From: Candidatus Woesearchaeota archaeon
GTDB lineage: Archaea; Nanobdellota; Nanobdellia; SCGC-AAA011-G17; GW2011-AR18
Assembly: GCA_018302235.1 (NCBI GenBank)
Contig: JAGVZW010000036.1
Coordinates: 1 to 43,540 of the forward strand
Reading direction: 5' to 3'
Length of the DNA stretch: 43,540 nucleotides
Below, piece after piece: positions 10,631 through 34,665 of the stretch (its first letter is position 1; each line of letters starts with the position of its first letter). The notes beneath the pieces were generated by a model. That model was not told the origin of the DNA, searched no databases, and saw only the letters and a list, made by a program, of their open reading frames with translations. The translations under genes were made by a program, and so were the position numbers.

Positions 10631-10723
10631 TGGACCCGTCGGGATGTTCACAATTTTTTGATTGTTTTGAACCCGAAACCCCCGCCTTGCAGGGGCGGTG
10701 CTCTACCGTTGAGCTACGGGCCC
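10631..10723 (-). tRNA. tRNA-Ala(UGC) with 21-nt T-loop intron
   Basis: GGGCCCG TA GCTC AACGGTA GAGC A CCGCC CCTGCAA GGCGG GGGTT TCGGG TTCAAA[intron]T CCCGA CGGGTCC A; 93 nt genomic, 72 nt spliced. Confidence 0.9.
10645..10665 (-). other. Predicted BHB intron in tRNA-Ala at position 59/60
   Basis: T-stem TCGGG/CCCGA; central helix TTCA/TGAA; 5' bulge AA^A; 3' bulge CA^T; intron helix CAAT/ATTG; excision restores TTCAAAT. Confidence 0.85.
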
Positions 10724-19521: not shown

Positions 19522-19710
19522 TCTGAAGAAACTAATAGAGTAATAATTTTTCTTGTAAAAATTGCAAATGCTCAAGAATTAGAAGCTGAAATTAAGAAAA
19601 GTAAGCTGGTTGTTAAGAAACCTTAATTTTTTTGTCCAAAATTCCAGACGTTAACTTAACAGCTCAATTAAAAGATAAATTTATATATTCTTATTTTATA
19701 AAAAATTTAT

Positions 19711-19836
19711 CCCCGCTTAGCTCAATGGTAGAGCGCATGGCTGTAGATAAATTCACTGTTTGATTAGGCTGTTGCCATAAATGAAAAACAGATAGCCAAA
19801 ACCATGAGGTTCCCGGTTCGAGTCCTGGAGTGGGGA
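19711..19836 (+). tRNA. tRNA-Tyr(GUA) with about 54-nt intron
   Basis: CCCCGCT TA GCTC AATGGTA GAGC G CATGG CTGTAG[intron]A CCATG AGGTT CCCGG TTCGAGT CCTGG AGTGGGG A; C1-G72 typical of archaeal tRNA-Tyr. Confidence 0.88.
19747..19800 (+). other. Intron of tRNA-Tyr (boundaries inferred from 37/38 position)
   Basis: Extra 54 nt in the anticodon loop; contains ACAG complementary to CTGT (32-35), but the canonical 3' bulge is not clean. Confidence 0.6.
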
Positions 19837-19871
19837 TACTTTTATAAAGAAAAAATATTAAACTGGATAAT

Positions 19872-32258: not shown

Positions 32259-32939
32259 TTAGAATTCACCCAAGTTTTTTTGTTTTTTTATCTTCGCAAC
32301 TTCTTTATATGTAGCCCAAGTTTTTCTAAAAATTTCTGGATACTTATTCCAATTTTCTTTTAAGAATTCTATAGTTTGTAAATCAGAAGGATATCCTGAA
32401 TTAAAATCACCGTAGATTTCTTTTAACTTTGCTATCTCTCTATCTCTTGTAACTTTTGCTAGAATTGAGGCTGCCCCGACCATAACATATTTACTATCTG
32501 CTTTATGTTCACATCTTAATTGAATATTTTCCTTTAAATAGGTCTTTAAATGCTCTGAATATGCTATTATATTATTAGATGGGCAATCAACAATAGCAAT
32601 CTCGGGCTTTAAATAATTAATAATCATAGCGAACTTAATACTTTCTAACCAGTTTAAATTAGTTCCCGGTGTTTCTAAAGTTTTATCAATCTCACCTGGA
32701 GAAATAATCAAAATCTTATATTTTTTTACAATCTTTATTATTCTTCCGTATAATTCTTCTCTTTTTTTTGAAGATAATTGTTTAGAATCCTTTACCCCGA
32801 GTGCAGTTAAAGAAGATAATTTATCTTCTTCAATCAATACCCCAGCTATTACCATTGGACCAATGACAGGGCCTATTGGTAGGTTAACTTAATAGTTAAA
32901 CCTTCTACCAGCGTCATCAGTTCCACAAATTAAAGTCAT
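32259..32939 (-). CDS. rnhB: Ribonuclease HII, interrupted by predicted 30-nt intron
   Basis: Exon 1 MTLICGTDDAGR; exon 2 GPVIGPMVIAGVLIEED...VGAASILAKVTRDREI...SGYPSD. ORF-track start at 32855 is an internal Met. Confidence 0.92.
32875..32904 (-). other. Predicted BHB intron in rnhB mRNA (30 nt)
   Basis: Minus strand TGGT AG^A AGGTTTAAC TATTAA GTTAACCT ACCA AT^A; removal restores GCT GGT AGA GGC CCT (AGRGP). Contains in-frame TAA. Confidence 0.8.
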
Positions 32940-34311: not shown

Positions 34312-34366
34312 TTTCTATTATTTTAAGAATAAAAAATAGCGGGAAAAGGATTTGAACCTTTGACCT

Positions 34367-34396
34367 TTACCCATTCTAACTAAAAAGTTAGATATT
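34367..34396 (-). other. tRNA-iMet intron D (43/44, 30 nt)
   Basis: ACCC/GGGT central helix; bulges GG^A and AA^A; intron helix AT(a)TCTAACT/AGTTAGAAT. Confidence 0.8.
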
Positions 34397-34402
34397 CCGG
34401 GT

Positions 34403-34429
34403 CTCTCGAAGGTACAATACAGTAGCCCA
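34403..34429 (-). other. tRNA-iMet intron C (37/38, 27 nt)
   Basis: CTCA/CGAG central helix (one A·C mismatch); bulges TA^T and AG^A; restores CTCATAA. Confidence 0.75.
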
Positions 34430-34437
34430 TATGAGCC

Positions 34438-34468
34438 ATCCGCGACATCCCTTTAAAAGAGATAACCT
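34438..34468 (-). other. tRNA-iMet intron B (29/30, 31 nt)
   Basis: CCGT/GCGG central helix (one wobble); bulges CG^A and AT^G; intron helix GGT(t)ATCTCT/AGGGATGTC. Confidence 0.75.
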
Positions 34469-34477
34469 CGACGGGCA

Positions 34478-34508
34478 TACAGGAAATTTCTAACGAATCA
34501 GAAATTTT
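34478..34508 (-). other. tRNA-iMet intron A (D-loop, 31 nt)
   Basis: CAGG/CCTG central helix; bulges AG^A and TA^T; intron helix AAATTTCT/AGAAATTT. Confidence 0.8.
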
Positions 34509-34665
34509 CTCCTGACTGCCCTATCCCGCTATAACTTAAAAATAAAATTCAATTCTATTTAAACTTATTTATATCATACTAAGACTACTTGATAGTAAAA
34601 ACAAAACGAAAGTTTTATAAAGAATTATATTTTGAAATATATAAAACAAAAGATGGTTATGGATA

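Follow-up and report, generated by a model that had tools for sequence, protein, structure and literature searches.

Bulge-helix-bulge (BHB) introns in the cbf5 pre-mRNA of Crenarchaeota were reportedly described by Watanabe in 2002. Yokobori et al. (2009) likewise deal with BHB introns in crenarchaeal cbf5 pre-mRNA, while introns in archaeal protein genes other than cbf5 are given as predictions only (PMC2738675), and according to a further paper, cbf5 is the sole mRNA of archaea for which a BHB intron has been reported (PMC7714728). A first-pass annotation of the DNA studied here, made from its letters alone, had stated that cbf5-type genes are the only well-known hosts of such mRNA introns, which agrees with both papers. 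An mRNA can serve as an EndA substrate outside a coding sequence as well, as a BHB in the 5′-UTR of HVO_1309 in Haloferax is cleaved by this enzyme (PMC7714728). The crenarchaeal cbf5 introns are the only archaeal coding-sequence intron family that these papers describe as validated, and the introns analyzed here add to it the gene of RNase HII (rnhB), a DNA-repair nuclease and a universal genome-maintenance function. In comparison to the cbf5 introns, those of rnhB lie in a different gene and at a different site, measure 16-43 nt, and occur in DPANN, Asgard, Thermoplasmata and Thermoproteota, whereas the cbf5 intron occurs in two crenarchaeal orders; splicing has been experimentally shown for cbf5 and is predicted for rnhB. 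The rnhB introns share with archaeal tRNA and rRNA BHB introns a 4-bp central helix, two 3-nt bulges and a cut between the second and third bulge nucleotides, but their exon side is constrained by the DEAGR-GP codons and there is no tRNA or rRNA fold around them. As with HVO_1309, an mRNA would be the substrate of EndA, although the processing site there is in the 5′ UTR and the rnhB intron sits within the coding sequence.

The window, i.e., the whole stretch of 43,540 nt that was analyzed, is contig 14 of an 816-kb Woesearchaeota MAG (37 contigs, 100% complete). On its minus strand, translation from the ATG at 32939 gives MTLICGTDDAG, after which 30 nt at 32904-32875 interrupt the active-site motif of rnhB before the frame resumes with GPVIGPMVIAG; the insert has no second occurrence in the window. 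Exon 1 (32905-32939, minus strand; ATG ACT TTA ATT TGT GGA ACT GAT GAC GCT GGT AG) accordingly holds the start codon, the MTLICGTDDAG segment and two nucleotides of an Arg codon, and exon 2 (32259-32874, minus strand) runs from the last nucleotide of that codon through GPVIGP to the stop. The putative intron between them, AAGGTTTAACTATTAAGTTAACCTACCAAT (32875-32904, minus strand), is delimited by its geometry and fold, by comparison with relatives and by shuffling, and contains an in-frame TAA (32891-32889, minus strand) at which translation of an unspliced mRNA would end. Excision of the 30 nt creates the codon AGA (Arg) and restores the DDAGR-GPVIGP motif. The PF01351 score then rises by 33 bits, being 122.6 bits without and 155.6 bits with excision, and the match gains the first 14 profile positions, so that it starts at position 1. 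The host gene is therefore that of RNase HII (PF01351, 155.6 bits) and not cbf5, and the spliced product aligns without gaps over DDAGRGPVIGP with the solved archaeal RNases HII. The first-pass annotation had proposed a 30-nt BHB intron in rnhB at exactly these coordinates and with this stop codon, and both were confirmed. It had also raised the possibility of a second intact rnhB; the whole 816-kb MAG carries a single RNase HII gene, that of the window.

The geometry of the predicted splice sites is canonical, as had been claimed. The central helix is formed by TGGT in exon 1 (32907-32910, minus strand) and ACCA near the 3′ end of the intron (32877-32880, minus strand), and is flanked by a 5′ bulge AG^A (32904-32906, minus strand; predicted EndA cut 32905/32904) and a 3′ bulge AT^A (32874-32876, minus strand; predicted cut 32875/32874). 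Between them, the fold and an offset test place an intron stem-loop with AGGTT/AACCT and inner pairs (32881-32903, minus strand). Four offsets leave the cut within the Arg codon; among them, one gave 4/4 central-helix pairs and the three others gave 2, 1, and 0; the former also provides the 5-bp intron stem and bulges of 3 nt on each side. Since this unique offset is the one that restores DDAGR-GPVIGP, protein homology and the BHB rule agree on the excision. None of 1000 shuffles of the window's 30 nt produced a BHB as good as the native one, and the fold check that the annotation had suggested gave -23.0 kcal/mol for 71 nt (z = -3.1).

The outer exon helix, which had been put forward as possible, fared less well. 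Apart from a possible short pairing, 9 bp could form between ACTGATGAC (32913-32921, minus strand; 5′ arm) and GTCATTGGT (32859-32867, minus strand; 3′ arm), but only beyond an internal loop; the helix is weak, and the stability of the 104-nt fold is not unusual (z = -0.45). Besides the fold, it is backed by codon usage in relatives: at the Val codon opposite exon 1, GTC is used by 23/38 intron-bearing genes of the non-Asgard set vs. 17/78 intronless ones (Fisher p = 6e-5, relatedness ignored). Exon-exon pairing was stronger in the non-Asgard intron set, and the exon side of the rnhB BHB may be tuned for pairing.

Inserts at the same site were found in relatives on a large scale. A Pfam scan of 61 genomes returned several rnhB genes whose match began just past DEAGR, and on reading the scanned genes ten of these carried inserts at the same codon. 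Together with the window they make 11 introns of 21-32 nt, each with one BHB offset that restores the Arg. A covariance model run against 378 genomes of the class gave full matches of 57-80 nt in about 30 genomes, and most of the other matching genomes had 39-nt matches that correspond to intronless genes; G119 and G171, picked up as short matches, turned out to be intact intronless genes. All GTDB species representatives were searched by pattern and the matches put through the BHB test, in the only survey to cover Halobacteriota and Methanobacteriota. An intron at this site turned up in MAGs named Lokiarchaeota, Thermoplasmatales, Jingweiarchaeum, Nanohalarchaeota, Aenigmatarchaeota, Thermoproteota, and Bathyarchaeota. 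The bacterial pattern matches either failed the BHB test or were intact genes, and none was a real intron. Surveys with a second covariance model then covered the phyla to which five of these MAGs belong. The intron was present in 35/228 genomes for the phylum of the Lokiarchaeal MAG (almost always with 30 nt), in 6/349 for that of the Bathyarchaeal MAG, in 4/293 for that of the Thermoplasmatales MAG, in 2/28 for that of the Nanohalarchaeal MAG and, counting checked cases only, in at least 9 of 135 for that of the Aenigmatarchaeal MAG. Loci L326 and L329, which the motif test did not confirm, were excluded from the count. With later additions counted, the total is about 90 archaeal rnhB genes in at least six phyla (Woesearchaeota/Nanoarchaeota, Aenigmatarchaeota, Nanohalarchaeota, Lokiarchaeota, Thermoproteota/Bathyarchaeota, and Thermoplasmata). 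The window's intron is therefore not an isolated case. It belongs to a family that shares one site across many phyla of archaea, which goes beyond the first-pass annotation.

The inserts at this shared site differ in sequence between archaea. Across the first 80 loci tested, lengths ranged from 16 to 43 nt and fell into all three modulo-3 classes (remainders 43/23/14), while the phase was one and the same in 78/80. BHB excision restored the Arg, as AGA, AGG, or CGA, in 79/80 loci, the lone exception being a truncated relic in G032. The exon 1 protein (GIDEAG) is kept in all intron-bearing relatives, and the comparison with RnhB of relatives that the annotation had called for showed that intronless sister genes are missing exactly the insert. 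In order to measure covariation, a structure-free MAFFT alignment of 10 introns was used, in which 91.3% of cells were paired and 9/12 pairs showed compensatory changes; the covariation score was 0.698 vs. 0.197 when shuffled (0/500), and slid-partner controls scored 0.02-0.20. For 82 introns the score was 0.819 vs. 0.224, in an alignment fitted to the model, with 95% of central-helix cells paired. Both helices, the central one and the intron stem, thus covary strongly among relatives. Taken one by one, 51/51 non-Asgard introns formed a better BHB than their own shuffles (p < 0.05), as did 23/28 Asgard introns, whereas 5/28 did not.

The MAG encodes one EndA of 174 aa (L052 1474-1998, minus strand; PF02778 and PF01974), closest in the PDB to a chain of 3iey (a tRNA-splicing endonuclease) and to other archaeal tRNA endonucleases. 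RtcB is present but incomplete, being cut by a contig end. ARAGORN, with introns allowed, found several intron-bearing tRNA genes in the MAG, among them a tRNA-Tyr(GTA) in the window (19710-19837, plus strand) whose intron of about 54 nt adjoins the anticodon and which represents the ordinary type of EndA substrate in this MAG. The MAG thus has both the conventional splicing machinery and the substrates on which it usually acts. The tRNA-Tyr gene had been overlooked by the default tRNA scan. A 56-nt tRNA-like element (36.2 bits, below normal tRNA length) lies between the 16S and 23S rRNA at 10668-10723 (minus strand), and a tRNA-Lys call with a 111-nt intron at 34336-34531 (minus strand), over the 3′ flank of an HMG-CoA-reductase-like gene, scores poorly and is likely false. 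A scan of about 816 kb of the MAG for BHBs that would connect open frames could detect no additional mRNA introns: 219 ORFs had a candidate at the true acceptor vs. 239-256 at six shifted control acceptors, and there is therefore no excess of BHB candidates. The most protein-like candidate examined proved to be two adjacent genes for the small and large clamp-loader subunits.

Everything in the annotation's BHB-intron reading that is checkable without RNA fits, and the reading is supported. We are confident that the rnhB insert is an archaeal pre-mRNA BHB intron, predicted to be cut by EndA and presumably joined by RtcB. In the transcript, ACCA at the 3′ end of the intron would pair with the Ala-Gly codons of exon 1 (TGGT), leaving a 3-nt bulge on either side; EndA would cleave within both bulges (AG^A, AT^A), and the exons would be joined by a ligase, most likely RtcB, creating the AGA codon and with it the RNase HII active site D-D-A-G-R-G-P. 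Translation of the unspliced mRNA would halt at the TAA in the insert, and production of RNase HII would then depend on splicing. The intron looks like a passenger, tolerated because the tRNA-splicing machinery removes it, that has been lost and/or gained repeatedly, probably by way of spliced RNA intermediates. Some EndA types are strict about their substrates, which together with the weak outer exon helix counts against this explanation, as do the 5/28 Asgard introns that are no better than shuffles at p < 0.05 and the incomplete RtcB at the contig edge.

Other accounts of the insert explain these data less well. Translational bypassing, known from T4 gene 60 and the mitochondrial byp elements, would have the ribosome hop over the hairpin with no RNA removed; it accommodates a short stop-containing hairpin insert in a coding sequence, and hops can skip any length. 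A landing triplet must, however, match the take-off codon, and the triplet preceding GGN-CCN, where reading would resume, is AGA in only 6/79 loci, so that the Arg would be lost; nor does bypassing predict BHB bulges or a helix between the exon and the insert's 3′ end, whereas the pairs of this helix do covary. We consider it highly improbable. Much the same holds for the idea that nothing is spliced, whether because a 198-aa protein is made from the ATG at 32855 without DDAGRGPVIGP or because rnhB is a pseudogene: such an open frame does exist, and in G032 a truncated relic with the intron accompanies an intact copy that lacks it. The segment lost would, however, include the catalytic Asp as well as the GRG motif; about 90 intron-bearing genes that differ greatly in age have kept exon 1; a second RNase HII is missing from most of the genomes checked; and compensatory changes would not be kept in a pseudogene. 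This leaves very little room for it. An assembly or sequencing artefact, which the annotation had named as a concern and which could be suspected as the window's insert comes from a single MAG, is practically negligible, given that differing inserts occupy this very nucleotide position in independent MAGs, which come from many phyla and sources.

How the introns came to be so distributed is a separate matter. On a quick tree of 175 RNase HII proteins with many weak branches, intron presence required at least 36 state changes. In the sampled Lokiarchaeal clade the intron is nearly constant at 30 nt with two absences and looks vertically inherited, and in Nanoarchaeota it varies within one genus (present in G009, absent from G003 and G008). 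A single ancestral intron, perhaps already in the last common archaeal ancestor and followed by dozens of precise losses, is a serious contender, if short of probable, against repeated insertion at a favored site; the identical phase everywhere and the Lokiarchaeal pattern speak for it, and cDNA made from spliced mRNA offers a possible route to precise loss. The 36 or more changes and the presence/absence within a genus fit repeated gain equally, however, and as the tree cannot polarize changes, gain and loss look alike on it. Tentatively, the rnhB site might instead be one at which BHB introns preferentially dock across the archaea, with short introns entering at the same nucleotide repeatedly. 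They would do so either through reverse splicing, involving EndA/RtcB and followed by cDNA-mediated conversion, or by spreading horizontally. If so, mRNA introns would be a recurrent, mobile-like feature of archaeal genomes, those of the Asgard relatives of eukaryotes included.

In their best reading, the rnhB introns are a second archaeal coding-sequence intron family besides cbf5, broader and patchy in distribution, with splicing predicted. The type of intron is known, but that it should be so widespread and recur at a single site was not expected. None of the open-access papers searched links an archaeal BHB intron to RNase HII or rnhB, and as subscription journals and preprints lay outside this search, the novelty is provisional. 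Given about 90 introns at the same point in at least six phyla, archaeal mRNA splicing appears far commoner than the validated cbf5 family suggested. The introns can be as short as 16 nt, they make mRNA splicing testable in Lokiarchaea, and they offer many natural presence/absence pairs, even within a genus, for how BHB introns come and go. Gene callers that ignore the intron truncate or miss exon 1, as does the open-frame list of the window, which gives the 198-aa frame from the ATG at 32855 instead.

Several genomes hold more than one RNase HII sequence. In G032, the intron-keeping truncated relic (L124/L104 at G032:C8) and the intact intronless copy (L050 at G032:C34) share homology only in the 3′ 200 bp (93%) and form no clean empty/occupied pair. 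Four genomes (G384, G388, G389, and G394; L203, L204, L205, and L206) have a second RNase HII match besides the intron-bearing rnhB, that of L203 being very divergent. Two rnhB genes (L299 at G012:C59 and L318 at G022:C3) encode an RnhB intein with LAGLIDADG and HTH domains. Like the introns, these inteins interrupt rnhB within a conserved motif of the active site, but they splice at the protein level and occupy another motif (FGS-GYPSD); the rnhB of G022 carries both an intein and a BHB intron.
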